Source: an uncultured Bacteroidales bacterium
GTDB taxonomy: Bacteria; Bacteroidota; Bacteroidia; Bacteroidales; Bacteroidaceae
NCBI GenBank assembly: GCA_902768605.1
Contig: CACXLY010000082.1
Span: 1-17,325, forward strand
Length of the DNA stretch: 17,325 nt
Direction of reading: 5' to 3'
The position numbers and the translations under genes were made by a program. The stretch's first letter is position 1; each line of letters starts with the position of its first letter. Shown here in pieces: positions 2,952 to 16,068 of this stretch. The notes beneath the pieces are model-generated. The model made no database searches and was not told where the DNA came from. It worked only from the letters and a program-made list of their open reading frames with translations.

Positions 2952-4013
2952 ATGGTCAATGTTCAATGTTCAATGCTCAATGAGCGGGCGGTGGAGTTGC
3001 TGTGTCGGCTCATTGAAGTGCCGCGTGTGAGCAGGGAAGAGAAGGCGGCTGCCGACCTCCTGCAGGACTATATGCAGGGAGAGCTCGGGCTCGAGGTAAA
3101 GCGCATCGGTAACAACCTCTGGTCGCAGCAGCCGAATTTCGATGCCAAGAAGCAGACTTTGCTGCTCAATGCCCATATCGACACCGTGAAACCCGTGGCC
3201 GGATGGCAGCGGAACCCGTTTCAGGCGACTCGTGAAGGCAGCCGCATCTACGGCCTTGGCGCGAACGACGACGGTGCCAGCCTGGTCGCTTTGCTACATG
3301 TCTTCGCTGCCCTCAAAGAGGAAGGAACTCCTTATAACCTTGTTTTCTTAGCGAGTGCCGAAGAGGAAGTGAGCGGGAAAGGCGGCATAGAAAGCGTACT
3401 ACCGCTGCTTCCGAAGATTGACGTCGCACTCGTCGGGGAGCCGACAGGTATGCAGCCGGCCATCGCCGAAAAGGGTCTGATGGTGCTCGATGTCACAGCG
3501 CACGGCAAGGCGGGACACGCAGCCCGCGACGAGGGCGACAATGCCATCTACCATGCCATCGAGGACATCGAGTGGTTCCGCAACTATAAATGGGAAAAGG
3601 TCTCGCCCCTGCTCGGTCCGGTCAAAATGACGGTCACCATCGTGAATGCCGGTACACAGCACAATGTAGTGCCCGACACCTGCACATTCACCGTCGATGT
3701 CCGCTCGAACGAGTGCTATACAAACCGAGAATTATTCGATGAAATCGGCAAAAATGTAAAGTCGGAGGTCAAGGCCCGCAGTTTCAGGTTGGGCTCCTCA
3801 GGCATCGATGTGAACCATCCCCTCGTGCAAAAAGTCATTTCGATGGGCGGCAAACCCTTCGGCTCACCCACTTTGAGCGACCAAGCCCTCATGCCTTTCC
3901 CCAGTTTCAAAATGGGTCCGGGCCAGAGCAGCCGTAGTCATTCTGCCGATGAATTTGTGGATTTTTGCGAAATAGAACAGGCGATAGAGACCTATCTCGA
4001 ACTATTGAAATGA
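2952..4013 (+). CDS. argE: M20-family deacetylase, ArgE type (N-acetyl/N-succinyl-citrulline deacetylase-like)
   Basis: Zinc-dependent amidohydrolase that in Bacteroidetes removes the acyl group from acylated citrulline in arginine synthesis. 353 residues from ATG 2952. Metal and catalytic motifs: NAHIDT (H75, D77), GANDDG (D106), SAEEEVSGK (E137-139), VGEPTGMQPAIAEKG (E163) and SRSHSADE (H330). The dimerisation (lid) domain runs roughly 175-285. The overall sequence closely resembles the Bacteroides protein as I remember it, which favours the citrulline substrate over ornithine, but other M20 peptidases are possible. Start choice is uncertain: the first seven codons are heptamer repeat, and an in-frame ATG at 2973 gives MLNERAVELL. 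It stands alone with its own promoter and runs convergent to tadA across a 22-bp repeat array. Confidence 0.88.
   Translation: MVNVQCSMLNERAVELLCRLIEVPRVSREEKAAADLLQDYMQGELGLEVKRIGNNLWSQQPNFDAKKQTLLLNAHIDTVKPVAGWQRNPFQATREGSRIYGLGANDDGASLVALLHVFAALKEEGTPYNLVFLASAEEEVSGKGGIESVLPLLPKIDVALVGEPTGMQPAIAEKGLMVLDVTAHGKAGHAARDEGDNAIYHAIEDIEWFRNYKWEKVSPLLGPVKMTVTIVNAGTQHNVVPDTCTFTVDVRSNECYTNRELFDEIGKNVKSEVKARSFRLGSSGIDVNHPLVQKVISMGGKPFGSPTLSDQALMPFPSFKMGPGQSSRSHSADEFVDFCEIEQAIETYLELLK
2955..2982 (+). repeat. Heptamer array TTCAATG x4 at the argE start
   Basis: GTCAATG, TTCAATG, TTCAATG, CTCAATG in tandem. Each unit carries an ATG, so a one-unit change moves the frame of the first ATG relative to the gene. 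The ATG at 2973-2975 is in frame. Confidence 0.85.
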
Positions 4014-4019
4014 CCCTTT

Positions 4020-4239
4020 GACGTGTATGGTCTCCAAACTACGCACGTGTAAATGCCAAACGACACACTAGTAAATTGCAATTTATACACTAGTAAATTG
4101 CGATTTATACACTAGTAGTTTTTGAACGACTCACGAGTAGTTGACAAATACGACGTGTCGTGATGAGCTTTTCGACGTGTCATGATGAGCTTTTCGACGT
4201 GTCATGATGAGCTTTTCGACGTGTCGTGTTTTCCAACCA
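4020..4239. repeat. Array A: ten units with exact 22-bp period
   Basis: Fills almost the whole 235-bp convergent spacer between argE and tadA. Ten consecutive 22-bp blocks start at 4020, 4042, 4064 and so on with no indels. Units at 4152, 4174 and 4196 are nearly identical (GACGTGTC head, GAGCTTTTC tail); those at 4064 and 4086 are also nearly identical (ACACTAGTAAATTGC). The hexamer ACNNGT occurs ten times, starting at 4021, 4045, 4067, 4089, 4111, 4133, 4153, 4175, 4197 and 4219. Tails vary far more than heads. No long hairpin or ORF explains it. Confidence 0.9.
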
Positions 4240-4248
4240 TCCGCGGCT

Positions 4249-4689
4249 CTATCGCTTTTCCCTGAAGAAGCGTTGTATGAGTTCGGCGCATTCGTCGGCC
4301 ATCACACCACTTTCGACCTGCGTCCGAGGGTGCAGGGCTTGGGGGGCGAAGCGTTGAAAACCACGCTTTTCATCGGGCGCCCCATAGACAATTCTGCTGA
4401 TTTGTGACCAGCCGAGGGCGCCTGCGCACATCACGCAAGGCTCCACCGTGACGTAAAGCGTGCAGTCATTCAAGTACTTTCCGCCAAGATGCTCTGCCGC
4501 CGCCGTGATGGCCTGCATCTCAGCATGCGCGGTCACATCGTGCAGCAGTTCAGTCAGGTTGTGGCTCTTGGCGATAATCCTGTCCCTGCACACCACGACA
4601 GCCCCAATTGGAATTTCGCCCTGCCGGTACGCCTCATTAGCCTCCGCCAGCGCCTGCTTCATGTAGAATATATCGATGTCATTTACCAT
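4249..4689 (-). CDS. tadA: tRNA-specific adenosine-34 deaminase
   Basis: Converts wobble adenosine to inosine in tRNA-Arg(ACG), giving decoding of CGN codons. 146 residues, normal length. Cytidine-deaminase-fold zinc site: HAE at residues 55-57 (H ligand, catalytic E) within DVTAHAEMQAI, and PCVMC at 84-88 with zinc-binding C85 and C88. The IPIGAVVV strand precedes the active site. The first codons (MVND) are themselves part of the heptamer leader repeat. It is transcribed divergently from the YhaM-like gene across a shared promoter region and converges on argE. Confidence 0.95.
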   Translation of the reverse strand: MVNDIDIFYMKQALAEANEAYRQGEIPIGAVVVCRDRIIAKSHNLTELLHDVTAHAEMQAITAAAEHLGGKYLNDCTLYVTVEPCVMCAGALGWSQISRIVYGAPDEKRGFQRFAPQALHPRTQVESGVMADECAELIQRFFREKR

Positions 4690-4713
4690 CTCTCATTTAC
4701 CATTTAATCATTT
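4687..4713 (-). repeat. 27-nt leader copy 1, ending in the tadA start codon
   Basis: Read on the minus strand, the 27 nt ending in the tadA ATG are identical to 4891-4917 on the plus strand. Built of AAATGGT-like heptamers and ending AAATGAGAGATG. Confidence 0.9.
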
Positions 4714-4733
4714 TTCCATTTACTATTTGTGAC

Positions 4734-4761
4734 CACTCTCCTTTGAAAGGGGTTAATGGCG
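4734..4761. other. Possible remnant of a palindromic repeat
   Basis: CTCTCCTTTGAAAGGGG resembles CTCTCCCTTAAAGGG inside the 78-bp element at 11111-11188, followed by a G-rich stretch. It may be a decayed copy of the same family; the similarity is short. Confidence 0.3.
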
Positions 4762-4815
4762 GGGTTTCATTCATCATTTAAGGGTTCGCAGAATGTTTTT
4801 TCTCCTTTTTACGTG

Positions 4816-4823
4816 CAAAGTTA
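4816..4823 (-). promoter_or_regulatory. -7 element for tadA
   Basis: TAACTTTG on the minus strand (CAAAGTTA on plus). It would give a leader of roughly 120 nt before tadA. It is 12 bp from the oppositely oriented -7 at 4835-4842, so the two promoters overlap and may compete for polymerase. Confidence 0.55.
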
Positions 4824-4834
4824 AGGAATTTTTG

Positions 4835-4842
4835 TAACTTTG
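4835..4842 (+). promoter_or_regulatory. -7 element for the YhaM-like gene
   Basis: TAACTTTG on the plus strand matching TAnnTTTG, about 73 bp before the ATG at 4915. No clear -33 TTG is visible. Confidence 0.6.
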
Positions 4843-4876
4843 CGAAGGAAAACGCAATAAATGTCATTTGCACATT

Positions 4877-4919
4877 AAATGGTAAATGGTAAATGATTAA
4901 ATGGTAAATGAGAGATGAA
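4877..4919 (+). repeat. Heptamer array AAATGGT, with leader copy 2 ending in the start codon
   Basis: Units AAATGGT, AAATGGT, AAATGAT, one extra T, AAATGGT, AAATGAG, AGATGAA. The last unit contains the ATG of the YhaM-like gene. Bases 4891-4917 are the perfect inverted copy of 4687-4713. Confidence 0.9.
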
Positions 4920-5790
4920 CAATACAGAATACCTCGTCATTAGCCGCAGCAACGGCACCACGAAGACCGGGTCGCCATACGCTTCGCTGAAGGTGGCAAA
5001 CCTCCTCGAGACTATCAATGTGGCGGTATGGGACATGCCTCCGACGGCAGAGCCGCAGGTGGGGCAGCTCGTCTTCTTCTATAATATGAAAGACAACGAC
5101 GGCAAGAAGTCGTGCGACCTGCGCGACCTGAAGTGCGGCGGAGAGCCGTTGCTCGACCATCCGCTCTATAACTTGTTGCCCCGTCCTGTCAGGCGTGATG
5201 TCTGGGATGACACGATACAGAAGCTCCTCAGCTATTGCTCGGACAAGCTCCTGATGGGCATCATCGAGGAGTTTGCAGGGCGCTTCTACGAGCCGTTCAG
5301 TCAGTACCCGGCAGCCACATCGATGCATCACGCCTTCCCCGGCGGGCTCTTGAACCACACGCACCAAATGCTCAAGATGCTCGAGGGGCTTTATCCCTGC
5401 CTGCCTTACGAGGTGAAGGTGGAGCATTGCATCCTCGCCATCCTTTTCCACGACTGCGGCAAGATGAACGAATACAGCAAGACGGGCGAGTCGCAGCCCG
5501 ACATGTACCTGCTCGGCCACATCTACATCGGAGCGCATTGGCTGCATAACATCCTCAAGGAGAGAGGGCTGAGCGAGGACGAGACGAAGCGCATCGTGCA
5601 CTGTGTCCTGTCGCATCATGGCCAAAGGGAATTCGGCAGTCCCGTCGTGCCGTGTACGCAGGAGGCCATCGTCGTGAGTCACCTCGATAACCTCAGCGCC
5701 AAGACCGACAACTGGGAAGGGGCGGGCGACATGGAATACATGAACGCGCTGGGGACGAAGAAGGTGGCACCTTCAATTCATAATTCATAA
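4915..5790 (+). CDS. YhaM-like OB-fold/HD-domain 3'-5' exoribonuclease
   Basis: Likely metal-dependent nuclease of the YhaM family (3'-5' RNA, possibly ssDNA, degradation). 291 residues. The N-terminal ~75 residues look like an OB fold (YASLKVANLLETINVAVWD, then a VGQLVFFYN strand). The HD domain starts near 135: SMHHAFPGGLLNHT (H138, H139, H147), FHDCGK (H179, D180), GHIYIG (H202), LSHHGQREFGSP (H234, H235) and SHLDNLSAK (H256, D258). This order of motifs is that of YhaM rather than of dGTPases or phosphodiesterases. The last residues and stop codon are encoded by an AATTCAT heptamer repeat, so the natural C-terminus may have been replaced or trimmed by repeat growth. Cytoplasmic; no partner gene is obvious. 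Confidence 0.85.
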   Translation: MNNTEYLVISRSNGTTKTGSPYASLKVANLLETINVAVWDMPPTAEPQVGQLVFFYNMKDNDGKKSCDLRDLKCGGEPLLDHPLYNLLPRPVRRDVWDDTIQKLLSYCSDKLLMGIIEEFAGRFYEPFSQYPAATSMHHAFPGGLLNHTHQMLKMLEGLYPCLPYEVKVEHCILAILFHDCGKMNEYSKTGESQPDMYLLGHIYIGAHWLHNILKERGLSEDETKRIVHCVLSHHGQREFGSPVVPCTQEAIVVSHLDNLSAKTDNWEGAGDMEYMNALGTKKVAPSIHNS

Positions 5791-5802
5791 TTCTTAATTC
5801 AT
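5775..5802. repeat. Heptamer array AATTCAT x4 spanning the 3' end of the YhaM-like gene
   Basis: AATTCAT, AATTCAT, AATTCTT, AATTCAT. Same unit as at 2877-2904. The gene's last codons and its TAA fall inside the first two units. Confidence 0.85.
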
Positions 5803-5835
5803 AATATGGCAGCGCCTTAGGGTTCGCGAAGGGGA

Positions 5836-5870
5836 GAATTATGAATCGTGAATTACGAATTAAGAGTTAA
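5836..5870 (+). repeat. Heptamer array GAATTAT x5 upstream of the LicD-like gene
   Basis: GAATTAT, GAATCGT, GAATTAC, GAATTAA, GAGTTAA in strict 7-bp register, 29 bp before the ATG at 5900. It is the reverse-complement sense of the AATTCAT unit at 5775-5802, so the two arrays flank an approximately 33-bp spacer as an inverted pair. Confidence 0.8.
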
Positions 5871-5899
5871 AGTGCAATTATTAATTTGTATTGTGAATA

Positions 5900-6748
5900 A
5901 TGGATTATAAAGGGCAGGAACTTCAGAAACTTCAGCAAGCGCTTTACGTCACGCTTGGCGAGGTGGACCGCATCTGCAGGAAGCACGGCATCCGTTACTT
6001 CGTGACGGGCGGCACGGCCGTTGGCGTGTACTTCTGGCACTCAATACTGCCCTGGGACGACGACGTGGACGTGGGCATGCTGCGGCCTGACTACGAACGC
6101 TTTGCCGCGATAGCGCAGGAGGAGATGGGCGACCGCTTCTTCCTGCAGACGCCTGACACGGAGCCGCATACGCCTTTCTTCTTCATGAAGGTCAGGATGA
6201 ATGGCTCCCGCTTCTCGGAAGCCACGTTCAAGGGCATCAAAATGCATCAAGGCATCTACGTCGACATATTCCCCTTCGACAAGATACCCAGGCAGCGATG
6301 GCTCGAACGGCTGCAGCACAACGTGCTCTTCTTCCTGAACGGCCTCTTCATTGCCAAGGAGATTTGGCAGTGGAAGCATTGCGGCAAGTGCGACATCCCT
6401 GAGCCGAGAAAGCGGGGCTGGCTGCCTTGCTTCTTCACTCGGCTGCTCATCACGCTGCTCAGCAAACGCACTATATATAATATAATGTATAGGGTGCAGA
6501 CGGCATTCAACGACAAGCCGCTGCCCCTGTGCAAAAACATCATCACCAAGAGCGAGCGCCTGCCCATCGAAGACGTCAAGCAGGCGCAGACCGCGACATT
6601 GGGCCCGCTGCAGGTCAGCGCGCCTCGCGACCTCCTGCTTTACCTCACGAACCACTACGGCACAGTCCGCAAGGACGTTCCCGACGAGATGAAGGTCAGT
6701 CATCGGCCCGAAGAGCTCGTCTTTCCGAAAATGAAAAATGAAGAGTGA
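5900..6748 (+). CDS. LicD-family phosphotransferase (nucleotidyltransferase fold)
   Basis: LicD proteins transfer phosphocholine or similar phospho-groups to surface glycans; the donor and acceptor here cannot be told. 282 residues. Signature region: GIRYFVTGGTAVG (residues 30-42) followed by LPWDDDVDVGM (50-60), with the metal-binding acidic cluster D53-D55 and D57. The hydrophobic block HGIYVDIFPFDKIP-like segment and the C-terminal YLTNHYGTVRKDVPDE are also typical of the family. No signal peptide; cytoplasmic face. The C-terminus ends in short GAA/AATGA-rich repeats. It lies upstream of a damaged membrane acyltransferase on the same strand, which suggests a small surface-glycan or envelope-modification pair. 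No clear TAnnTTTG promoter is visible in the 109-bp spacer. Confidence 0.87.
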   Translation: MDYKGQELQKLQQALYVTLGEVDRICRKHGIRYFVTGGTAVGVYFWHSILPWDDDVDVGMLRPDYERFAAIAQEEMGDRFFLQTPDTEPHTPFFFMKVRMNGSRFSEATFKGIKMHQGIYVDIFPFDKIPRQRWLERLQHNVLFFLNGLFIAKEIWQWKHCGKCDIPEPRKRGWLPCFFTRLLITLLSKRTIYNIMYRVQTAFNDKPLPLCKNIITKSERLPIEDVKQAQTATLGPLQVSAPRDLLLYLTNHYGTVRKDVPDEMKVSHRPEELVFPKMKNEE

Positions 6749-6830
6749 AGAATGAAGAATTTGCTACCGCATAATGTAGAAGTAAACGGATTGAAGCAAC
6801 CGGATTACTGCCAAAGCATGGGGCGTAGCC

Positions 6831-6865
6831 AAATTATGAATTAAGAATTGTGAATTATGAATTGC
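6831..6865 (+). repeat. Heptamer array GAATTAT x5 before the acyltransferase start
   Basis: AAATTAT, GAATTAA, GAATTGT, GAATTAT, GAATTGC, followed by AAATGAA, whose ATG (6868) is the likely initiation codon. Exact 7-bp register. Confidence 0.85.
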
Positions 6866-6867
6866 AA

Positions 6868-7856
6868 ATGAAACAGAGAAACCACTCCTTCGACATCCTT
6901 TGCGGCATCTGCATCATCCGCATGGTGACGCTGCACATCATGGCTTTCTGCGGAGAGGACAAGCAGGACTGGTGGCTCGAAGTGATGCGTTGGAGTTTCT
7001 TCTTCATGAGTTTCTTTTTCTTCAAGGCCGGCTACTTCAACAAAGGCACGTCGAGCGGCACGGACCTCGACTACCTGAAGGACCGCAGCAAGCGCCTCTT
7101 GGTGCCCTACCTGATGAGCGGCCTCATCGGAGCCGTGGTCTATTTCAGTTTCTACTTCCCTTTGGTCGACAGGTACAAGAAGTTCGTTGAGCCGCTCGAA
7201 TGGAACCACATCTGGATGAAGAGCGGCTTCTACGGCAACTCGCCCATCTGGTTTCTCTTCTCGTTCTTCACCGTCTATATGATGGTGCGGTACATCGACA
7301 AGGTGAAGCATCTGTGCTGGCTCACGATACTCTTCCCGGCCATCAGTTACTGGGCATACCGGACGGGCAACAACGTGCCGATGAGCCTCGGCAACGTCAA
7401 CGCTTCAGCAGGGAGCAGGTGATGGCAGCGTCGTGGCTGATGGTGGCGATGTTCGTCGTCCTCGGTATCGTGGTGCCCGGCACTTACAACATGAGCCAGA
7501 ACCTCTTCACGGGTAACGCCGTGATGGCGGTCGTCAATGCCACCTTGATACTCTGCGGCTTGGCGGGCGTCCTGCTGACGTTGCAGGTGCCGCGGATCCC
7601 CTTGCTGTGCTTCATCGGCGAGCATAGCATGGTCTTCTTCATCTCGCACTATCCGATGCTTTATTTCTACAAGTTCATGCACCTTTCCTATGGCAGGAGC
7701 ATCTACGGGAAGACGGACGACGTGCTCATCCTCTTGCCCGTCATCTTCTGCCTGTGTGCCTGGCTTGTGCCCTACATCGAGCGCATCCCGTGGCTTAGCG
7801 GACGCTGGCCAGAGAAGCCTCGTGCAGTTCCAGCAGCCGAACCACGCCAAGACTGA
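6868..7856 (+). pseudogene. Membrane acyltransferase (Acyltransferase_3 family), frameshifted
   Basis: Integral-membrane O-acyltransferase of the type that acetylates surface polysaccharides. The first frame (6868-7422) has the start MKQRNHSFDILCGICIIRM, the histidine motif VTLHIMAF, FFFKAGYF, then DRSKRLLVPYLMSG and PIWFLFSFF, and stops after SLGNVNASAGSR. The rest of the protein resumes in another frame from FSREQVMAA (about 7410) through IGEHSMVFFISHYPM to PRQD at 7856. The join lacks the membrane-segment residues expected after SLGNVNA, so a small non-triplet deletion near 7400 is more likely than a single-base error. The ATG at 6850 lies inside the repeat; 6868 is preferred. It could be a true null allele, a phase variant or an assembly error. 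Confidence 0.8.
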
Positions 7857-8355
7857 TGGACTTCAGTCCGAAGTCTTCCGGCCTGACGTCCTGCCAGGGC
7901 AGCCACAGCACTTCGCCGGCGTCGTCCATCGCCGTAGCGCCCTCTGTCTCAGCAACCTTGCAGAGGAAGAAGAGGTCGAGAGTGGGGATGTCAAGTCCGC
8001 TGTAGCGGTACATGTTTGGCAGCGAGAAGAGGTAGCGTGCCTCGGCAACCGTGAGCCCCGTCTCTTCCATGACTTCCCGCCTGACGCCCTCTTCGCCCGT
8101 CTCAAAGCAGTCGCAGAAGCCGCCGGGCAGGTCGAGCGTCCCCTTCGCAGGTTCCTTGCTTCGCCGCACAACCAGCAGACGGTCCGTTTCATCGACAATG
8201 ACGGCCACCGTGGAGGCACTCGGATTCATGAAATACACGAAGCCGCAGGCCTCGCAACGCTTGCTTTTCTCGCTGTCCTCGACAAAGCTCTTCGATCCGC
8301 ACTTCGGGCAAAAAGAGAAGAGTTGCAACAGGTGATTTCTTTCTTTGTTAGCCAT
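7795..8355 (-). CDS. Zinc-ribbon Nudix hydrolase
   Basis: Predicted pyrophosphohydrolase; substrate unknown, although the NADH-pyrophosphatase/zinc-ribbon-Nudix layout suggests a nucleotide-type substrate. 186 residues from ATG 8355. Zinc ribbon: CPKC (C16, C19) and CEAC (C34, C37). Nudix box: G79-x5-E85-x7-REVMEETGL (93-101), complete, with the catalytic glutamates E97/E98 present. The longer frame to 8406 starts upstream of the -7 element and is rejected. Its 3' end overlaps the convergent acyltransferase pseudogene by 62 bp. It is divergent from the NfeD-like gene. Confidence 0.9.
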   Translation of the reverse strand: MANKERNHLLQLFSFCPKCGSKSFVEDSEKSKRCEACGFVYFMNPSASTVAVIVDETDRLLVVRRSKEPAKGTLDLPGGFCDCFETGEEGVRREVMEETGLTVAEARYLFSLPNMYRYSGLDIPTLDLFFLCKVAETEGATAMDDAGEVLWLPWQDVRPEDFGLKSISLGVVRLLELHEASLASVR

Positions 8356-8375
8356 ATTTTGATACTTATTGTTTG

Positions 8376-8406
8376 CAAAAGTAGCAAAAAGCGCGATATA
8401 AAGCAA
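8376..8406 (-). promoter_or_regulatory. Promoter of the Nudix gene
   Basis: On the minus strand, -33 TTG within 8404-8406, then about 20 bp, then the -7 element TACTTTTG (8376-8383), 20 bp before the ATG at 8355. Confidence 0.6.
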
Positions 8407-8413
8407 GTTTTCG

Positions 8414-8444
8414 TTGTCCGTTCCGCCTAAATTCGTTAACTTTG
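8414..8444 (+). promoter_or_regulatory. Promoter of the NfeD-flotillin pair
   Basis: TTG at 8414-8416, a 20-bp spacer, and TAACTTTG at 8437-8444: a near-ideal Bacteroidetes sigma-ABfr promoter. The ATG follows 45 bp later. Confidence 0.75.
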
Positions 8445-8467
8445 TACTTCGGAAAGCATTAAAGGAG

Positions 8468-8495
8468 TATTAACCATTAACATTAGACTATGAAC
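8468..8495 (+). repeat. Heptamer array at the NfeD-like start
   Basis: TATTAAC, CATTAAC, ATTAGAC, TATGAAC: four 7-bp units, the last containing the ATG at 8490. Confidence 0.65.
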
Positions 8496-9113
8496 TTCGT
8501 ACAACTGACAGACTGGTTTCAGGCGTTGCCTCCCTACATGCGCGCCTATTGGGTGATAGCCATCGCCGTTTCCATCATCTTCATCATTCAGATGGTACTG
8601 ACGCTCGTCGGGCTTGGCGATACCGATGCTGGCGGCGACCTGGGCGACTTCGATGCCGGCGGCGGCGACTTGGGCGACGGCAACGGCGACACGATGGATA
8701 CTGGCGGAGCCATTCAGCTCTTCACGATTCGCAACACGGTCAACTTCCTGCTGGGTGTCGGCTGGGGTGGCGTCTGCCTGAGCAGCGTCATCGAGAACCG
8801 CTTCCTGCTCGCCGTGGCTGCCATCCTTTGCGGTTGCATCATGGTGGCCGCCTTTATATTAATGTATAGACAACTGATGAAGCTCGAGGGTAACGGCAGT
8901 TATCGCATCGAGGAGAGCGTGGGGCAGGTCTGCGAGGTATATATCCGCATCCCCGGCCAGCGCAGTGGCAACGGCAAGGTGCAGATCAGTTTCCATGGCT
9001 CGGTGCAGGAGTTGCCGGCCCAGACGGAAGGCGATGCCATCCCGAGCGGCAAGAAGGTCAGGGTGACGAAGATTGTCAGCAAGAACCTCCTGATAGTGGA
9101 GCCTTTGGCCTGA
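8490..9113 (+). CDS. NfeD/YqiJ-like membrane protein with C-terminal OB fold
   Basis: Membrane partner of flotillins. 207 residues: TM1 about 20-41, a Gly/Asp-rich loop 42-72 (repeats of GGDLGD type), two further hydrophobic segments about 82-101 and 104-126, and a C-terminal beta-rich domain 135-207 (VGQVCEVYIRIPGQRSG, then GKKVRVTKIVSKNLLIVEP) of the OB type found in NfeD and YqiJ. The flotillin gene lies 139 bp downstream on the same strand, the classical pairing. Role in membrane-domain organisation is inferred from the family. No ClpP-class protease domain is present, so it is the short form. Confidence 0.8.
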   Translation: MNFVQLTDWFQALPPYMRAYWVIAIAVSIIFIIQMVLTLVGLGDTDAGGDLGDFDAGGGDLGDGNGDTMDTGGAIQLFTIRNTVNFLLGVGWGGVCLSSVIENRFLLAVAAILCGCIMVAAFILMYRQLMKLEGNGSYRIEESVGQVCEVYIRIPGQRSGNGKVQISFHGSVQELPAQTEGDAIPSGKKVRVTKIVSKNLLIVEPLA

Positions 9114-9115
9114 AT

Positions 9116-9211
9116 CGTGATGACGTTATTCCGTCCCGTGATGACGTTATCCCATTAAATCCTTAAGACGTTATCCCGTTCCGTTATGACGTTATAACGT
9201 TATGACGTAAT
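9116..9211. repeat. Array B: GACGTTAT units, mean period 22 bp
   Basis: GACGT recurs at 9122, 9143, 9167, 9188 and 9204, with spacings 21, 24, 21, 16. The first four span 66 bp, exactly three times 22. The end of the array is a tighter palindromic run, GACGTTATAACGTTATGACG. It sits between the NfeD-like gene and flotillin, so it would be transcribed within their mRNA. Confidence 0.7.
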
Positions 9212-9226
9212 GACGAAAAAGAAATT

Positions 9227-9248
9227 ATTAAATCATTAAATATTAAAT
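9227..9248 (+). repeat. ATTAAAT x3 before the flotillin start
   Basis: ATTAAAT at 9227, 9235 and 9242 (one extra base after the first), followed at once by CAAAATGG containing the ATG at 9253. Confidence 0.7.
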
Positions 9249-9252
9249 CAAA

Positions 9253-10629
9253 ATGGAACCCTTCTATCTTATTGTGATTGGAGTCGTCGTACTCGTCTTC
9301 CTTTTCATGGCCATCGTAAACCGTTATCGTCGCTGCCCCAGTGACAAGATTCTGGTTATCTACGGCAATCGCGGCAACAGCAAGAGCGCCAAGTGCGTGC
9401 ACGGCGGCGGTGCCTTCGTGTGGCCCATCATCGAGGACTATGCTTACCTTTCCCTGACGCCCATCGGCATCGATGCGAACCTGACAAATGCCCTGTCGAG
9501 GCAGAACATCCGCGTGGACGTGCCCTGCCGCTTCACCGTCGGCATCAGCACGGAGCCCGAGAGCATGCTGGCTGCCGCTGAACGCCTGCTCGGACAGACG
9601 CCCCAGCAGATTCAGGAGCTTGCACGCGACATCCTCTTCGGCCAGCTTCGTCTCGTCATCGCCACCATGAGCATCGAGGAGCTGAATTCTGACCGAGACA
9701 AGTTCCTCGAAGCCATCACGGCCAATGTCGAGGTCGAGCTGAAGAAAATCGGTCTGCGACTCATCAACGTCAACGTGACCGACATCAAGGACGAGAGCGG
9801 CTACATCGAGGCCCTCGGACAGGAGGCCGCCGCGAAGGCCATCAATGAGGCCAAGGTACGCGTCGCCGAGCAGGAGCGAAACGGTGAGATTGGTAAGGCT
9901 GAGGCTGTCCGTGAGACGCGTATCCGTACCGCCGAGGCGAATGCCGAGGCCGTGAAGGGCGAGAACGAAGCCAAGATAGCCATCGCCAACTCCGATGCCG
10001 TGCGTCGTGAGCGCGAAGCAGAGGCGCAGCGAAAGGCCGTGGCTGCCGAGAAGGTGGCCAGCGCTCAGGCGCTCGAAGAAGCCTACGCGGCCGAGCAGAA
10101 GGCTGAGAATGCGCGTGCCGACAAGGAACGTGCGAGCCAGCAGGCCAACGTCATTGTGGCTCAGGAGATTGAGAAGAGGCGACTCGTCATCGCTGCTGAG
10201 GCTGAGGCCGAGCAGAAGAGGGTCAATGCCAAGGGTGAGGCAGACGCCATCTTCGCCAAGATGGAGGCCGAGGCAAAGGGCTTGTTCCAAATCCTCACGA
10301 AGCAGGCAGAGGGCTACGACAAGATGATTCAGGCTGCCGGCGGCGACGCCACGAAGGCCTACACGCTGCTGCTTCTCGAGAAGCTCCCCGACCTTGTCAA
10401 GACGCAGGTCGAGGCCATCAAGGGCATCAACATCGACAAGGTGACCGTTTGGGACAACGGCGGCGGCGCTGGCGACGGCAAGACGAGCACGGCCAACTTC
10501 CTCGCTGGACTGATGAAGAGCGTGCCTCCCCTCAGCGAACTCTTCGACCAGGCAGGCATGGCGCTGCCCGAGTATCTGGCTAAGAAGAAAGAGGAAAAGA
10601 CCGAGTCGCCCAGCGAGGCTGAGGAGTGA
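9253..10629 (+). CDS. Flotillin-family SPFH membrane protein (YqiK-like)
   Basis: Membrane scaffold that forms large ring or cage assemblies with its NfeD partner. 458 residues. An N-terminal membrane anchor (residues 4-22, YLIVIGVVVLVFLFMAIV) is followed by an SPFH/PHB domain about 25-195 (VVIYGN-like strand, IDANLTNALSRQNIRVDVP, QIQELARDILFGQLR, LKKIGLRLINVNVTDI). A long Ala/Glu-rich coiled coil spans about 200-345 with many AEA/EAE repeats. The C-terminal region 350-458 includes AGGDATKAYTLLLLEKLPDL and a charged tail. Length and order fit bacterial flotillin of the YqiK type rather than HflK/HflC. Likely cotranscribed with the NfeD-like gene from the 8414 promoter. Confidence 0.92.
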   Translation: MEPFYLIVIGVVVLVFLFMAIVNRYRRCPSDKILVIYGNRGNSKSAKCVHGGGAFVWPIIEDYAYLSLTPIGIDANLTNALSRQNIRVDVPCRFTVGISTEPESMLAAAERLLGQTPQQIQELARDILFGQLRLVIATMSIEELNSDRDKFLEAITANVEVELKKIGLRLINVNVTDIKDESGYIEALGQEAAAKAINEAKVRVAEQERNGEIGKAEAVRETRIRTAEANAEAVKGENEAKIAIANSDAVRREREAEAQRKAVAAEKVASAQALEEAYAAEQKAENARADKERASQQANVIVAQEIEKRRLVIAAEAEAEQKRVNAKGEADAIFAKMEAEAKGLFQILTKQAEGYDKMIQAAGGDATKAYTLLLLEKLPDLVKTQVEAIKGINIDKVTVWDNGGGAGDGKTSTANFLAGLMKSVPPLSELFDQAGMALPEYLAKKKEEKTESPSEAEE

Positions 10630-10652
10630 TGAAGTGAAGCGTCAGCTTTTCC

Positions 10653-10762
10653 TTGCTGTGGGAAAGGCCAACGCTTGCTGTGGGAAAGGATGACGCTTGC
10701 TGTGGGAAAGTCCAATGCTTGCTGTGGGAACGGCTGACGCTTGCTGTAGCGTCGGTTCTTCC
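10653..10762. repeat. Array C: five units of exactly 22 bp
   Basis: TTGCTGTGGGAAAGG-type units begin at 10653, 10675, 10697, 10719 and 10741 with no indels; the fifth is diverged after TTGCTGT. The junction reads ACGC, ACGC, ATGC, ACGC at 10671, 10693, 10715 and 10737. It lies directly downstream of flotillin and upstream of the feoAB promoter. Confidence 0.9.
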
Positions 10763-10822
10763 CTCACGCGGCGTTGAAGTTTGCCCCTCGCTACATCATC
10801 TTTTTTAGGTATTTTTGTCATT

Positions 10823-10860
10823 TAGAGGCATGTGGCTGCTTGTCATGTGCCTCTTTTTTT
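10823..10860 (+). terminator. Intrinsic terminator overlapping the feoAB promoter
   Basis: AGAGGCA pairs with TGCCTCT (7 bp; intervening bases may extend it imperfectly) and is followed by a run of T to 10860. Probably terminates the flotillin transcript. The feoAB -33 element lies inside its loop. Confidence 0.65.
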
Positions 10861-10869
10861 GTATCTTTG
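10840..10869 (+). promoter_or_regulatory. Promoter of feoAB
   Basis: TTG at 10840-10842, exactly 19 bp, then TATCTTTG at 10862-10869. The start ATG at 10899 is 30 bp on. This places the in-frame ATGs at 10815, 10830 and 10845 upstream of transcription. No Fur-like palindrome is evident. Confidence 0.75.
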
Positions 10870-10898
10870 CAGCACGAAAGGGGTTTTTCTATACAACG

Positions 10899-13280
10899 AT
10901 GACACTCAGAGAACTTCATAGAGGGCAGTCGGCCATCATCCTCAAAGTGGGTGGCGAGGGGGCGCTACGGCAGCATTTCCTCGACATGGGCATGATACCC
11001 GGCACACAGGTGACGCTGCAGAAGTTCGCACCCCTCGGCGACCCGATGGAGCTGAGGATTCACGGCTACGAACTGACGCTGCGGCTCGCCGACGCTGAAA
11101 AGATTGAGGTACAGACCCTCTCTAACTCTCCCTTAAAGGGTGAGAAACTTGAAGCTTCCCCTATAAGGGGAGGTTTGGAAGGGTCTGTGAGTTGGGCTGC
11201 CTTCCCGCATCCGGGCTTCGGCGAAGAAGGTCGCTACCACGATGAGGACGCATTTCACCCCATTTCATCGGCAAAAAAGGGGCCGCTCACCTTTGCGCTC
11301 GTAGGCAATCAGAACTGCGGAAAGACCACGCTTTTCAATCAGCTGACGGGCAGCAAACAGCATGTCGGCAACTTCCCCGGCGTGACAATCGACCGCAAGG
11401 ACGGCATCATAAAGGGCCATCCCGAAGCCACCGTCACCGACCTCCCCGGCATCTACAGCCTCAGTCCATACACGAGCGAAGAGGTCATCAGCCGTCAGTT
11501 TATCCTGGACAACAAGCCGAGCGGCATCATCAATATCGTCGATGCCAGCAACATCGAGCGCAACCTCTACCTCACCATGCAGCTGATGGAGCTCGGCATG
11601 CCCATGGTGTTGGCGCTCAACATGATGGACGAGGTGAGGGGCAACGGCGGAACCGTCCGCATCAACCAAATGGAGCGGCTGCTCGGCATTCCCGTCATCC
11701 CTATCAGCGCCATGAAGAACGAGGGCGTCGATGAGGTGGTGAGCCACGCCATACACGTGGCGCGCTACAACGAAGGGCCTGCGCGGCAGGACTTCTGCAG
11801 TCCGACGGAGCACGGCGGCGCCGTGCATCGCTGCCTCCATGCCATCATGCACTTCATCGAAGACCATGCACAGGCCGCCGACATACCTGTCCGCTTCGCC
11901 GCCAGCAAGCTGATAGAGGGCGACAAACTCGTGGCGTCGGCGCTCAGCCTGACACAGAACGAGCAGGAGACCATCGAGCATATCATCTGCCAAATGGAGG
12001 AGGAGCGCGGCCTCGACCGTTGCGCCGCACTCGCCGACATGCGGTTCCACTTCATCCTGCAGGTCAGCCAGTCCTGCGTCGTGCATCCCGAGGAGAGCAG
12101 CGAGCACAAGCGCAGCATCCGCATCGACAAGGTACTGACCGGCCGCTACACGGCCATCCCCGCCTTCCTGCTCATTATGGCTGCGGTCTTCTACTTGACG
12201 TTCAACACGATAGGCGCTTGGCTGCAAGACCTTTTCCAGGAGGGCATCGACCGCTTTACGGAGCTGTCCGACGCCGCCCTGACTGAGTGGGACATCGCCC
12301 CGCCCATCCATTCGCTCATCATCGACGGCATCTACTCCGGCGTCGGCACGGTGCTCGTCTTCCTCCCCCTCATCGTCATCCTCTTCTTCTTCCTCAGCAT
12401 GCTCGAGGACACGGGCTACATGGCGCGCATCGCCTTCGTGATGGACCGCCTCCTTAGAGGGCTGGGTCTGTCCGGCCGCAGCATCGTGCCTCTGCTGATT
12501 GGCTTCGGATGCTCCGTGCCCAGCATTATGGCCAGCCGTACCCTTCCCAGCGAACGCGACCGCCGGCTCACCATCTTGCTCACGCCCTTCATGTCCTGCA
12601 CCGCCAAGATACCTATCTATGCCTTCTTCGCTGCGGCCTTCTTCCCGAGGCATGCAGCATGGGTGATGATGTCGCTCTACGTGATTGGCATCCTCGTGGG
12701 TATCGTCGTGGCGCTCGTCTTGAAAAGGACGCTCTTCCGCGGCGAGGCGGTGCCCTTCGTCATGGAGCTGCCAAACTACCGCATGCCCGTTGCCATGAAC
12801 GTCTGGCACCTGTTGTGGGACAAGGCGAAAGACTTCCTCTCCCGCGCCTTCACCGTTATCTTCCTCGCCAGCATCGTCATCTGGCTCCTCCAGACATTCG
12901 ACTTCCACCTCCAGATGGTGCCTGCCGAGGAGGCCTCCCGCAGTATGCTGGCTCGGATATCGAGCCTTGTCGCGCCCATCTTCGAGCCGTTGGGTTGCGG
13001 CGACTGGCGCGTGGTGACCTCGCTCGTCAGCGGTCTCTTGGCAAAGGAGGTCGTGGTGAGCACGCTCAGCACACTCTTTGCAGGCGTGACGATAACCAGC
13101 GTCTTCACCCCAGGCGTTGCCTTCACGCTGCTCGTCTTCTGCCTGCTCTATACGCCCTGCATGGCAACGATGGCCACCGTCCGGCGCGAGCTCGGCACCC
13201 GCTGGATGCTGTTCATCATGGTCGGACAGTGCTGCGTCGCCTGGCTCGTAGCATTCCTCGTCCACCTGATTGTCAGCTAA
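10899..13280 (+). CDS. feoB: Fused FeoA-FeoB ferrous iron transporter
   Basis: Inner-membrane GTP-dependent Fe2+ importer. 793 residues from ATG 10899, chosen because the promoter excludes upstream starts. FeoA SH3-like domain 1-72 (LDMGMIPGTQVTL). A linker of about 55 residues contains a translated palindromic DNA element (see 11111-11188). The G domain has G1 GNQNCGKT (136-143), G2 Thr163 in FPGVT, G3 DLPG (181-184), G4 NMMD (241-244) and G5 SAMKNEG (270-276). The membrane domain runs from about 430 with two Gate motifs, including GFGCSVPSIMASR and LTPFMSCTAKIPIY. A-B fusion is usual in Bacteroidetes. Downstream, 134 bp away, is the Cys-rich FeoB partner fused to a sialidase. Confidence 0.96.
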   Translation: MTLRELHRGQSAIILKVGGEGALRQHFLDMGMIPGTQVTLQKFAPLGDPMELRIHGYELTLRLADAEKIEVQTLSNSPLKGEKLEASPIRGGLEGSVSWAAFPHPGFGEEGRYHDEDAFHPISSAKKGPLTFALVGNQNCGKTTLFNQLTGSKQHVGNFPGVTIDRKDGIIKGHPEATVTDLPGIYSLSPYTSEEVISRQFILDNKPSGIINIVDASNIERNLYLTMQLMELGMPMVLALNMMDEVRGNGGTVRINQMERLLGIPVIPISAMKNEGVDEVVSHAIHVARYNEGPARQDFCSPTEHGGAVHRCLHAIMHFIEDHAQAADIPVRFAASKLIEGDKLVASALSLTQNEQETIEHIICQMEEERGLDRCAALADMRFHFILQVSQSCVVHPEESSEHKRSIRIDKVLTGRYTAIPAFLLIMAAVFYLTFNTIGAWLQDLFQEGIDRFTELSDAALTEWDIAPPIHSLIIDGIYSGVGTVLVFLPLIVILFFFLSMLEDTGYMARIAFVMDRLLRGLGLSGRSIVPLLIGFGCSVPSIMASRTLPSERDRRLTILLTPFMSCTAKIPIYAFFAAAFFPRHAAWVMMSLYVIGILVGIVVALVLKRTLFRGEAVPFVMELPNYRMPVAMNVWHLLWDKAKDFLSRAFTVIFLASIVIWLLQTFDFHLQMVPAEEASRSMLARISSLVAPIFEPLGCGDWRVVTSLVSGLLAKEVVVSTLSTLFAGVTITSVFTPGVAFTLLVFCLLYTPCMATMATVRRELGTRWMLFIMVGQCCVAWLVAFLVHLIVS
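11111..11188. repeat. 78-bp palindromic element inside feoAB
   Basis: Outer ends ACAGACCCT and AGGGTCTGT are perfect inverted repeats, with imperfect pairing inward. Two inner palindromic cores are CCCTTAAAGGG and CCCCTATAAGGGG. The length is 26 codons, so the frame is kept, and it is translated as QTLSNSPLKGE...SPIRGGLEGSV in the linker between the FeoA and G domains. It looks like a REP/MITE-type repeat unit captured in a coding region. Confidence 0.75.
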
Positions 13281-13281
13281 A

Positions 13282-13416
13282 CTCAGAACCTCAGATTATT
13301 CAGAATCCTCCGATTCCTCAGAAAACTCCGAACCCTCAGAAAACTCCGAATCCTCCGAATATTCAGAATCCTCCGAACCCTCAGAAATCTCTAATTCCTC
13401 AGAACACTCAGACTAT
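13282..13416 (+). repeat. 9-bp tandem array between feoAB and the sialidase fusion
   Basis: Fourteen consecutive 9-bp units from 13291 (TCAGAATCC, TCCGAACCC, TCAGAAAAC and variants), plus one weaker unit at 13282, with no indels. The final unit TCAGACTAT supplies the AT of the ATG at 13415-13417. The array fills the spacer from one base after the feoAB stop codon. Confidence 0.9.
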
Positions 13417-14836
13417 GAACATCCAAAGCATCATCCTCCTTACCGCTGTGATAGTCGTTGCTGCCTTCGTGCTGTACCGCTATCTGCGCAGTGATAACAA
13501 ATGCAGCTGCTGCGAAGGTTGCAACAAAGATTGTTGCGCGAAACTTCTCATCCTGCTTCTCTTTTTGCCTTTTGACGTGTTGGCTTCGGTCACTTATGCT
13601 GATGCAAGGACCGGGGCAACTGAACTTCCGGACAAATCGCACAAAAGCGATGTCCAAATTCTCGCTCACAGCAACGACAGCACACGCGACGTCTATCGTA
13701 TTCCAGCGATTGCCAAGAACAAGAAGGGTGAGTTGATTGCCATCTACGATTACCGCGTGTGTGGCTCCGACATCGGTTTCGGAGAAGTCGACGAGGTGAT
13801 GCGTATCTCGAAGAACAACGGCAAGAAGTGGTCGGCCGAGACTAAGATTGCCGATGGAATGGGGGGAAATGACAACATCTTCGGCGTTGGCTTCGGCGAT
13901 CCGGCGCTCTGTCTGGACCGCGAGAGCGGCAGGGGTGTGCTCATTACCGTCAGCGGAAAGTGCATCTATGGCTATGCCAAAGCAGACTATCGTCCCTTCA
14001 TTGCAAGGCAGATTACCACGGACGGCGGACATACCTGGAGCGCGCCGGAAGACATCACTCCGCAGTTCTGGGGAAAGGCTGGCTCGATGTTCCAACAAAA
14101 GGAAACTGACGATGGAATGGGCGTTTTTGCGTGGGCAGGCTTCTTTGGCAGCGGTAAGATTCTGCAGAGTCGTGTCACGAAAGTAGGCGACTATTACCGC
14201 CTCTATGCCGCCTTGCTATTGAAAGGCACAGGACTCAAGGGCGCGTATGTCGTTTACAGCGACGACATGGGCATGAACTGGCAGCTTCTGGGAGGCGATG
14301 CTTCGTTTCAGGCGGCTCCCGACAGCGACGAGCCGAAGGTGGAGGAACTGCCCAGCGGACAAATCGTGCTGAGCGGCAGGAAGTGGTACGGCCGCACGTT
14401 CAACATCTGGACATTCGCTGAGGGTAGCGTCACCAAAGGCTCTTGGGACACGCCCGTCAACAGCCACGATGTGCCGACGGGCATCAAGGTGGGCGCCAAC
14501 AGCTGCAACGGCGAGATTCTCATCGTCCGCGGGCGTCGCGTTTCTGACGGCAAGCCTTGCCACGTCGCTCTCCAAAGCCTCCCGAAAGCCGACACACGAG
14601 CCGACGTTTCTATCTTCTATAAGGTTCTCGAGGAAGGCAAGAAGTACACGACCGCTGCCTTTGCCGAGGGCTGGAAACTCGGCATGCAAGTCACCGACAA
14701 GCGCTCGGCCTACTCCACCATGTGCCAGCAAAAGGACGGCCGCATCGCTTTCTTCTACGAAGAGGAACCTTATATATATAATATGGTATACGTGCCTCTC
14801 ACCCTCAAACAGGCAACGAATGGCGAAGTGAGATAA
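13415..14836 (+). CDS. FeoB-associated Cys-rich membrane peptide fused to a sialidase (GH33-like)
   Basis: 473 residues in one open frame. Residues 1-41 match the small FeoB-associated Cys-rich membrane protein: one TM (4-22, IILLTAVIVVAAFVLY), then KCSCCEGCNKDCC with cysteines at 30, 32, 33, 36, 40 and 41. From residue 42 a second hydrophobic segment, AKLLILLLFLPFDVLAS, looks like a sialidase signal peptide without its own Met. The exo-sialidase body follows: YRIP at 94-97, Asp-box-like SKNNGKKW (132-139), TDGGHTW (202-208) and SDDMGMNW (282-289), and a C-terminal SAYSTMCQQKDGRIAFFYEEE. There is no in-frame Met between residues 1 and 129, so the sialidase has no independent ATG. It probably arose by deletion between two neighbouring genes. 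Activity and topology are uncertain. Confidence 0.85.
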   Translation: MNIQSIILLTAVIVVAAFVLYRYLRSDNKCSCCEGCNKDCCAKLLILLLFLPFDVLASVTYADARTGATELPDKSHKSDVQILAHSNDSTRDVYRIPAIAKNKKGELIAIYDYRVCGSDIGFGEVDEVMRISKNNGKKWSAETKIADGMGGNDNIFGVGFGDPALCLDRESGRGVLITVSGKCIYGYAKADYRPFIARQITTDGGHTWSAPEDITPQFWGKAGSMFQQKETDDGMGVFAWAGFFGSGKILQSRVTKVGDYYRLYAALLLKGTGLKGAYVVYSDDMGMNWQLLGGDASFQAAPDSDEPKVEELPSGQIVLSGRKWYGRTFNIWTFAEGSVTKGSWDTPVNSHDVPTGIKVGANSCNGEILIVRGRRVSDGKPCHVALQSLPKADTRADVSIFYKVLEEGKKYTTAAFAEGWKLGMQVTDKRSAYSTMCQQKDGRIAFFYEEEPYIYNMVYVPLTLKQATNGEVR

Positions 14837-14854
14837 AGCAAATAAAGAAGCCCC

Positions 14855-15784
14855 ATGAAAAGAACCTTTCTTTTGGTCGTCCTGACCATCGTGTCCTTGA
14901 GCGTTCTGCCGAAGGACAAATCAGATGTACTGCGTGACAACCTCTTCCGCAATCCCAAGTTCGTTACCGTCGTGGCACATCGGGGCGACTGGCGCAACCA
15001 TCCCGAGAACTCCATTCCTGCCTTCCAAAGTTGCATCGATAAGGGCATCGACATGATTGAAATTGACGTGCGGCGCACCAAAGACGGTCAGCTCATACTG
15101 ATGCACGACCCGACGGTTGACCGCTGTACCAACGGGAAAGGCAAGGTGGCCGACTTGACCTACGACGAGATACAGAAACTGCGCCTTCTTCCCCAGCACA
15201 ATGCAGCCCCCACCCGCAACCACATCCCTACGCTTGAAGAAGTCCTCGTCCTTTGCAAAGGGAAGATACTTATCAACATCGACAAGGGCTACGACTACTT
15301 TCAGCAAGTGTATGAACTGATGGAGAAGACAGGCACCACAAACCAAGTCATCATCAAGTCAAGCAACCCCCTCGACAAGGTGAAGCGTGAGAACGGCGCG
15401 ATACTCGACAAGGTCATCTACATGCCTATCGTGAACCTGAACGCCGCGAACGCAGAGAAGACTCTCGACGAGTTCATCAGCATTCATCCCGTCGCCATAG
15501 AGTGTTGCATAGGCAAGTACGACGAAAACGTAGGTCGCTTGCTTCAAAAGGTGCGTGATGCAGGCATCAAGATATGGCTCTACAGCATTTGGGCCAGCCT
15601 TTGTGACGGCCACGACGATGACCGTGCAGTAGAACTGGGTGAGCCTGACGAAAGCTGGGGCTGGTTATTGGACAGAGGCGCTACCGTCATTCAGAGCGAC
15701 CGCCCATTAGACCTTCTGCAATATCTGACGAAGCACAAGCGTCACAAGCTGAAATCAAACTTGTCGTCCATCCCCAGGAAATAG
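14855..15784 (+). CDS. Secreted glycerophosphodiester phosphodiesterase-family protein
   Basis: Hydrolyses glycerophosphodiesters to glycerol-3-phosphate and an alcohol, or a related phosphodiester. 309 residues. Signal peptide 1-19 (MKRTFLLVVLTIVSLSVLP), so periplasmic or surface. GDPD TIM-barrel motifs: AHRGDWRNHPENS (H42, R43, E51), EIDVRRTKDG (E69, D71), LMHD (H84), the Lys of INIDKG and IKSSNP on later strands, and a C-terminal GATVIQSDRP. All catalytic residues I can identify are present. It starts 18 bp after the sialidase stop, so the two are cotranscribed; this suggests a joint role in scavenging host or bacterial glycoconjugates and lipids, which is inference. Confidence 0.9.
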   Translation: MKRTFLLVVLTIVSLSVLPKDKSDVLRDNLFRNPKFVTVVAHRGDWRNHPENSIPAFQSCIDKGIDMIEIDVRRTKDGQLILMHDPTVDRCTNGKGKVADLTYDEIQKLRLLPQHNAAPTRNHIPTLEEVLVLCKGKILINIDKGYDYFQQVYELMEKTGTTNQVIIKSSNPLDKVKRENGAILDKVIYMPIVNLNAANAEKTLDEFISIHPVAIECCIGKYDENVGRLLQKVRDAGIKIWLYSIWASLCDGHDDDRAVELGEPDESWGWLLDRGATVIQSDRPLDLLQYLTKHKRHKLKSNLSSIPRK

Positions 15785-15909
15785 TTGTCAATTATCGATT
15801 ATCCCCGTTTGTCGCTGAAGAGTTAAGTCTTGGTGACTGAATCGGCCAATGCCTGCCTGCGTCATTCCGAGTGCGGCAGTCAGGGTTATTATGTGTGCTT
15901 TGTATGAAG

Positions 15910-15990
15910 GACGTGTATCGTTGCCAGTCCACCAACGGGTAAACTGCAGTCCACCAACGCGTGGACTGCAGTCCTAACACGGGTGGACTG
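15910..15990. repeat. Array D: palindromic units with 22-bp period
   Basis: Three exact 22-bp blocks begin at 15925, 15947 and 15969 (CAGTCCACCAACG-type heads). The middle one is a perfect hairpin: CAGTCCAC and GTGGACTG around a 6-nt loop. Upstream, GACGTGTATCGT at 15910 matches GACGTGTATGGT at the start of array A (4020) in 11 of 12 positions. ACNNGT occurs at 15911, 15935, 15957 and 15979. Confidence 0.85.
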
Positions 15991-16002: not shown

Positions 16003-16068
16003 GTTAGCCTTCATGTCGGAAACGTAAATCATGAGCATGAAGTCGTAGTCGCCACGCCCGCGTAAGAA
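16003..16068 (-). pseudogene. Possible Lrp/AsnC C-terminal domain remnant
   Basis: On the minus strand this stretch encodes GDYDFMLMIYVSDMKAN, resembling the G-x-YD-x-LL...V-x-D strand of the Lrp/AsnC RAM domain. A stop lies 14 codons upstream (TGA), no HTH domain precedes it, and similarity ends where array D begins. It may be the relic of a regulator gene eroded by repeat growth. The match is short and could be chance. Confidence 0.35.

Follow-up and report, generated by a model that had tools for sequence, protein, structure and literature searches.

Intergenic arrays with a 22-bp period, varying units and frequent dyad symmetry at gene ends in a Bacteroidales lineage

Repeat arrays between the genes of the window

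We analyzed a stretch of 17,325 nucleotides from an uncultured bacterium of the Bacteroidaceae (Bacteroidales; assembly GCA_902768605.1, contig CACXLY010000082.1), hereafter called the window, and followed four of its intergenic tandem-repeat arrays, A to D, into related genomes. A preliminary reading by a model that had only the letters (the sequence-only reading) had proposed that the four arrays are unrelated in their units and yet share one exact 22-bp period and an ACG core. The arrays and the genes beside them are as follows.

2952 to 4013, forward strand: M20-family peptidase gene, left of array A (Pfam PF01546, PF07687)
4021 to 4226, no strand assigned: array A, with ten ACNNGT cores, between the convergent M20-type peptidase and deaminase genes
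4249 to 4689, reverse strand: cytidine/adenosine deaminase-type gene (tadA-like), right of array A (Pfam PF14437, PF00383)
9116 to 9215, no strand assigned: array B, an 8-bp-type repeat (CGTTATGA) in the gap upstream of the SPFH gene
9253 to 10629, forward strand: SPFH/Band 7 (flotillin-like) gene, left of array C (Pfam PF01145)
10652 to 10747, no strand assigned: array C, a 22-bp unit present in 4.4 copies, in the gap that separates the SPFH/Band 7 gene from feoB
10815 to 13280, forward strand: feoB with a FeoA domain, right of array C (PF02421, PF07670, PF07664 and PF04023 on 10869-13277); the actual start codon may be internal to this frame
14855 to 15784, forward strand: glycerophosphodiester phosphodiesterase-type gene, left of array D (Pfam PF03009)
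15911 to 15990, no strand assigned: array D, a leader core at 15911 and three dyad-symmetric 22-bp units (15925-15990) of type CAGTCCACCAACGCGTGGACTG

Comparison of each array with itself revealed the 22-bp period in A, C and D, with self-identities at offset 22 of 0.67, 0.66 and 0.55, respectively. Self-identity at offsets 21 or 23 was low in these three arrays (0.17-0.26; 0.17 and 0.18 in A). The cores of array A start at 4021, 4045, 4067, 4089, 4111, 4133, 4153, 4175, 4197 and 4219, and the array was judged longer than first stated. Its steps are 24, 22, 22, 22, 22, 20, 22, 22 and 22, and the ACNNGT steps of array D are 24, 22 and 22, so the register described as exact includes one 24 and one 20 in A and an opening 24 in D. 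The sequence-only reading was right that spacings of 24, 22 and 22 open both A and D and that their opening 12-mers are nearly identical (GACGTGTATGGT and GACGTGTATCGT). In array C, GCTTGCTGT recurs at 22-bp intervals and ACG recurs at that distance just once (10671, 10693); the proposed common core was found as ACNNGT in A and D, but does not extend to C.

Array B was ruled out as a member of the 22-bp class. Its GACGTT steps are 21, 24 and 21, its CGT motifs lie mostly at 8-bp intervals, and its self-identity was 0.53 at offset 8, 0.51 at offset 21 and 0.18 at offset 22. Similar CGTnAT-type repeats, judged by eye, occupy the same position in three related loci (L001, L006 and L007). The description of all four arrays as lying just downstream of genes applies to A and C; D begins 141 bp after the preceding stop codon, and B occupies the space between two genes of the same strand, ahead of a start codon.

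When the nine gaps of the window were Markov-resampled in 200 sets, Tandem Repeats Finder (TRF) reported 12 arrays in total, one of them with period 22. Dyad symmetry was compared with 500 versions of each array in which one and the same column permutation was applied to all units. The observed score was reached by 9 permuted versions for D, by 24 and 40 for the first and second parts of A, and by 98 for C. Array D is a clear dyad array, the dyad of A is marginal, and C shows the period with no significant dyad. A and D belong to a genus-wide population of 22-bp arrays, and C probably does.

Period, place and symmetry in related genomes

As relatives, we used 80 loci that the SPFH/Band 7 gene retrieved from metagenome-assembled genomes (MAGs) of gut and rumen Bacteroidales, a subset of a larger number of candidates. 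Within this subset the closest was L001, from a goat omasum MAG, with an SPFH/Band 7 gene 92% identical in DNA to that of the window. Larger samples were G005 (1.2 Mb, ~40% of the genome), G006 (301 kb), G008 (200 kb), G003 (133 kb) and stretches of G001 (382 kb), the last picked around CACGTG matches and thus biased towards arrays. Genes were called by a crude longest-open-reading-frame method.

The intergenic tandem-repeat rows of G005 numbered 151 at period 22, compared with 3, 9, 0 and 1 at periods 20, 21, 23 and 24, and merged into 132 arrays, or 110 per Mb. The corresponding counts were 28 against 1, 9, 0 and 1 in G006 and 46 against 0, 3, 0 and 0 in the G001 stretches, while G008 had 9 rows at 22 and 8 at 21. 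Across 81 sequences, comprising the window and the 80 loci (1.41 Mb in all), TRF reported 48 intergenic rows at period 22 and 7, 17, 8 and 3 at 20, 21, 23 and 24. A search that assumed no period gave the same distance: 165 strong CRYG-centred dyads were found in G005 gaps versus 9 in Markov-resampled gaps, and 70 distances of up to 60 bp between neighbouring dyads were 22 (42), 44 (25), 43 (2) or 21 (1), that is, 22 or 44 in 67 of 70. The fraction at 22 or 44 was 9/10 in the G001 stretches and 2/4 in G006. The period of 22 bp characterizes the lineage. The sequence-only reading had named the lack of a genome-wide excess at 22 over 18-26 bp as a refutation, and the relatives do not refute it; its argument that slippage at each locus would not yield one common period also stands, since 22 dominates both among the rows of G005 and among the dyad distances. 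Locus L018 additionally holds two long arrays of period 44, twice 22, at 4323-4746 and 4856-5130 (9.6 and 6.2 copies).

Three CACG motifs at 22-bp spacing were found in 115 of 139 species of the genus, with 0 to 307 forward matches per genome; the reversed-pattern control for these triples was raised in some genomes by arrays containing GCAC. In genomes drawn from the order, such triples occurred in 15 of 119, G001 included, and G198 (23) and G226 (9) stood out among the other 14. In these two genomes, elsewhere in the order, the 22-bp arrays are built from very dissimilar units, which resemble GCCATATATGGC and AGGTATATTCCT.

The arrays are concentrated between genes and near gene ends. Gaps of 60-600 bp in G005 held an array in 39/79 convergent, 62/194 tandem and 13/80 divergent cases, and in tandem gaps the array lay a median of 28 bp after the upstream stop codon. 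In the G001 stretches, 9/33 convergent, 22/70 tandem and 6/29 divergent gaps held arrays, at a median of 36.5 bp from the stop. Strong dyads occurred at 1.61 per kb in gaps versus 0.09 per kb in genes.

We further compared orthologous gaps. Behind the SPFH gene, 20 sequences picked among the closest were examined, and offset 22 alone stood out in 12 of them (the window, L001, L002, L004, L005, L006, L007, L018, L229, L230, L235 and L239), with self-identities of 0.67-0.94 and a next best of 0.38-0.60; TRF alone detected five of these arrays (the window, L002, L006, L007 and L018). Their units come from several families, and the 11 other loci carry units different from those of array C. In L243 and L247 the best offset was 21 (0.73 and 0.76; 0.67 and 0.73 at offset 22), and L003, L008, L012, L025, L228 and L232 had no array at this place. 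In the peptidase-deaminase gap that holds array A, offset 22 was best in all six sequences examined (the window, L001, L005, L006, L012 and L018; 0.62-0.98), again with differing units; in L002 and L003 this gap is almost absent. Genome-wide, orthologous gaps of G006 and G005 held arrays in both genomes in 2 cases, in one only in 1 and in neither in 9 (n=12, p 0.045); the corresponding numbers for G001 and G005 were 2, 3 and 1 (n=6, p 1). The units differed where both genomes held an array. Related species can thus retain an array in place although its letters have been exchanged, an indication that spacing and symmetry count for more than the sequence itself.

Turnover and spread of units could be followed in a few cases. 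Locus L235 carries six full units and its relative L004 four, with identical ends; this one orthologous pair supports duplication by whole units (the sequence-only reading had proposed a dedicated templated process), although no enzyme for it was found. The view of the arrays as unrelated held up only in part, as individual unit families are found repeatedly at many loci in the sampled genomes and a 10-mer of array A (CACTAGTAAA) occurs in arrays of other species, namely behind the SPFH gene in L004 (the same place as L233, reached by another route) and twice in L228, 22 bp apart.

The best even dyad score exceeded that of column-permuted arrays in G005 (0.716 versus 0.510), in the G001 stretches (0.680 versus 0.465) and in G006 (0.608 versus 0.492), and the mean was 0.589 versus 0.477 in 19 arrays from eight further species (coding and intergenic pooled). 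Symmetry is clear in the G005 and G001 samples and weaker elsewhere. A circular-unit symmetry score gave p<0.05 in 33% of 58 G005 rows, 13% of 39 G006 rows and 2/8 window rows; this weak result reflects the blurring effect of mixed orientations and of two dyads in each unit, and a register-based score was used instead. With all centre sizes searched, two-base-centre dyads reached 16.8 per kb in 45 G005 arrays, compared with 2.5 in other gaps and 2.7 in shuffled sequence, and the centre was AC in 30 and GT in 20 of the 60 listed. The main dyad (P1) of an array was taken to be whichever had more AC/GT centres, and the make-up of its 490 centres in G005 (GT 194, AC 191, AT 60) is therefore partly built in; the all-centre-size search makes no such choice. 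The dyad counts per array, from which 8 of the 132 G005 arrays were left out (near a stretch end or with fewer than two dyads), were 4 in 46, 3 in 34 and 5 in 21 of 124. Arrays usually have three to five units of 22 bp in tandem, and most carry a dyad.

The ACG noticed in the window mostly belongs, in the relatives, to a dyad centre of the form C-RY-G, around which the arms vary by locus and species and tend to stay complementary. Unit types in G005 include TTAA-CACG-TTAA, GCCG-CACG-CGGC, TTCA-CACG-TGAA, GATA-CATG-TATG and others, and TCAA-CACG-TTGA (G024), ACAG-CGTG-CTGT (G016), GGGA-CRCG-TCCC (G035) and CTC-CGTG-GAG (G009) were found elsewhere. Arm positions d2-d4 paired in 0.80-0.82 of 130 G005 consensuses versus 0.32-0.45 expected, much of this signal lying between families. 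Covariation was found at d2, d3, d4 and d6 in 35 G001 arrays (p 0.0005 to 0.021), and double changes that keep pairing numbered 38 within G005 arrays versus 7.7 expected.

A proposed boundary role at gene ends and its alternatives

The sequence-only reading knew of no named family like these arrays; two known systems come close, and both differ. Repetitive extragenic palindromic (REP) sequences and bacterial interspersed mosaic elements (BIMEs) are small palindromic repeats that include families with alternative complementary stem residues, lie mainly between unidirectional and convergent genes, 3' of coding regions, and are in some cases species-specific (PMC3733652). Like these, the G005 arrays have a palindromic unit of the 20-40 bp class, high copy number and an intergenic position 3' of genes, and they too vary in their arms, often with complementarity kept, and favour gene ends. 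They differ from REPs in that the units stand head-to-tail at an exact 22-bp period, show no excess of sense-strand G.T pairs and are poor in the REP tags GTAG and CGTC (12 versus 78 expected and 39 versus 67 in G005; 8 versus 23 and 2 versus 20 in the G001 stretches; 9 versus 13 and 2 versus 6 in G006). They also differ from REP/RAYT systems in that no Y1 transposase (RAYT, PF01797) was found in five of nine genomes; G001, G007, G008 and G009 gave matches, those of the last being weak, and G002-G006 none. BrickBuilt of Porphyromonas gingivalis is a minisatellite or miniature inverted-repeat transposable element of one sequence family, with a 23-nt unit, 19 copies in one genome, a leader and tail with inverted ends, and predicted long stem-loops, and is species-specific (PMC4596501). 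It shares with the present arrays the order Bacteroidales, the intergenic position, spacer-less tandem repeats and a similar length; here, in contrast, the unit is 22 bp, there are ~110 arrays per Mb in G005, and the families are many. No row of period 23 was found in G005, G006 or the G001 stretches. The outer array edges were profiled here for base composition.

The arrays are best read as a REP/BIME-like DNA element at gene ends that lacks the REP tags and is abundant also where no RAYT was found. We propose, with a probability of roughly 0.4, that they act as DNA-level punctuation of gene ends, in which phased dyads limit read-through and/or supercoiling and units turn over as wholes. A phased row of dyads, one per two helical turns, would extrude hairpins or bind a structure-sensing protein, and would thereby limit read-through and/or supercoiling between neighbours in both directions, especially between convergent genes. 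Arrays may grow and shrink by whole units through slippage, and units may be replaced from other arrays by conversion, so that the sequence would turn over while period, symmetry and place persist. Of the readings considered, a boundary role of this kind is the likeliest, with a selfish or mutational origin close behind.

Several observations weigh against the boundary role. Arrays in G006 are hardly skewed by gap type (6/16 convergent, 11/60 tandem and 6/28 divergent gaps; median 91 bp from the stop), its main family, TACC-CACG-TGAT, has non-complementary arms, and 5 of the 19 arrays from the eight further species scored below their own null. With the CCG and CATG families removed from G005 (62 arrays left), covariation remained at d3 and d4 only (p ~0.003) and not at d2, and changes within arrays are mostly uncompensated (305 single versus the 38 paired double changes). 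G003, with a single period-22 row, and others of the genus are nearly without such arrays. The genome-wide orthologous gaps are too few to establish conservation of place, and the gene-end position could merely reflect sites where an array is harmless. A separate hairpin-plus-T signal away from the array was the best one at 19/78 convergent ends with an array versus 39/80 without (15/62 versus 31/132 in tandem gaps), and this lower convergent rate is weak, each strand being represented by its best signal alone.

The arrays might instead be selfish or neutral repeats that arise by slippage duplication and spread by conversion or a mobiliser, with gene ends as tolerated sites and template switching perfecting the inverted arms. 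We consider this somewhat doubtful, although the recurrence of unit families at many loci of one genome, the flipped centres (both orientations within 19/132 G005 arrays), the near absence of strong dyads from coding sequence and the patchy occurrence of CACG triples among genomes all point towards it. It leaves unexplained why the period is 22, rather than 21 or 23, at more than 100 loci with different units, and why arrays recur at the same orthologous gaps. Mobilisation by RAYT was rejected as the general cause, since G005 and G006 are array-rich and have no PF01797 match. Serine recombinase sites consist of a central dinucleotide flanked by inverted arms, and arrays of such sites were rejected because serine recombinase PF00239 matched in 0 of the nine genomes. 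All genomes are MAGs, possibly incomplete, and such absences of machinery are therefore uncertain. In 30 chosen genomes, SbcD (TIGR00619) exceeded its cut-off in 3 and gave some match at E<=0.001 in 24; its loss does not track the arrays, because the array-rich G009 is among the three. Reverse transcriptase (PF00078), found in 10 of the 30, had no clear relation to array richness and was set aside.

Phased protein-binding sites, one of the proposals of the sequence-only reading, are consistent with the exact two-turn spacing, the dyads and the lack of strand preference. Plasmid iterons are tandem sites about every two helical turns, tied to replication origins and one initiator; the present arrays repeat at a similar distance, but they are dispersed at gene ends and have many unit sequences. 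Iteron-like sites for one or more sequence-specific dimeric proteins of fast-changing specificity would fit the constant positions of G005 (d1 C/G, d8 A/T) beside variable ones and the one main motif of G006. They are nevertheless improbable given 63 distinct half-sites among the G005 consensuses, and no DNA-binding-looking multi-copy family was seen by eye among 874 G005 proteins (~40% of the genome; 8 families of at least three members). We regard as similarly unlikely the bolder view of a spacing-locked, nearly sequence-agnostic system, in which some factor would sense dyad symmetry and two-turn spacing rather than the letters of the arms and would install, homogenise or preserve C-RY-G arrays at gene ends throughout the genus; place, period and symmetry would then be inherited and the sequence would be free to change.

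Least probable are RNA-level elements, either bidirectional intrinsic terminators or stabilising hairpins in 3' untranslated regions, the latter also suggested by the sequence-only reading. The location of the arrays behind stop codons and between convergent genes would suit them, as would the T-rich outer edges (T-runs of four or more, 0.37 versus 0.06 inside). At 27 of the 78 convergent array ends, the best hairpin-plus-T signal also coincides with the array. The strand tests gave them no support. Mismatches and centre orientation were counted with arrays left out if both dyad scores were under 0.6. Sense-strand mismatches in G005 tandem gaps comprised 58 G.T versus 65 A.C at P1 and 54 versus 62 at P2, and in convergent gaps, with P1 taken on the nearer gene's strand, 38 versus 61. 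Centre orientation in tandem gaps was AC in 27, GT in 20 and undecided in 11. Only about a third of array ends carry a T tract, and these were not stronger on the sense 3' side (24% versus 35% on the sense 5' side; 83 ends each, G005 and G001 pooled), which is not what intrinsic-terminator arrays, with the stronger T tract 3' on the transcribed strand, would show. The lack of a strand signal therefore speaks against a strand-specific RNA role, and a bidirectional one is compatible with these tests.

The surprising part is that 22 bp stays constant while the sequence is replaced. If this is confirmed, many species of one genus would flag a large fraction of their gene ends with arrays that keep period and symmetry as the letters change. 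Nature would thereby have tested the requirements of a chromosomal boundary element, and the arrays could lead to a protein or process that measures 22 bp. For annotation, arrays of this type in rumen MAGs could be taken for unrelated, locus-specific minisatellites.

Other features of the window

One further feature lies beside array D.

16004 to 16057, no strand assigned: probable gene remnant, resembling by eye part of a longer L002 sequence at the corresponding place

A counterpart of this stretch is missing in L001 and L006, as if a gene at this place had decayed. The remnant may be lrp-like.

An acyltransferase-type frame at 6850-7856 (PF01757 in its first part) is seemingly split into two overlapping frames, and its second part gave no family match. 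Immediately 3' of feoB, at 13279-13412, lies a 9/18/45-bp repeat of type CTCAGAATCCTCC. Repeats of 7 bp (TAATTCA, TAAATGG and AATTCAT types) stand beside start codons at 2876-2908, 4876-4918, 5775-5805, 6730-6760 and 6832-6863, and no intergenic TRF class was more frequent in the 81 sequences than period 7, with 58 rows.

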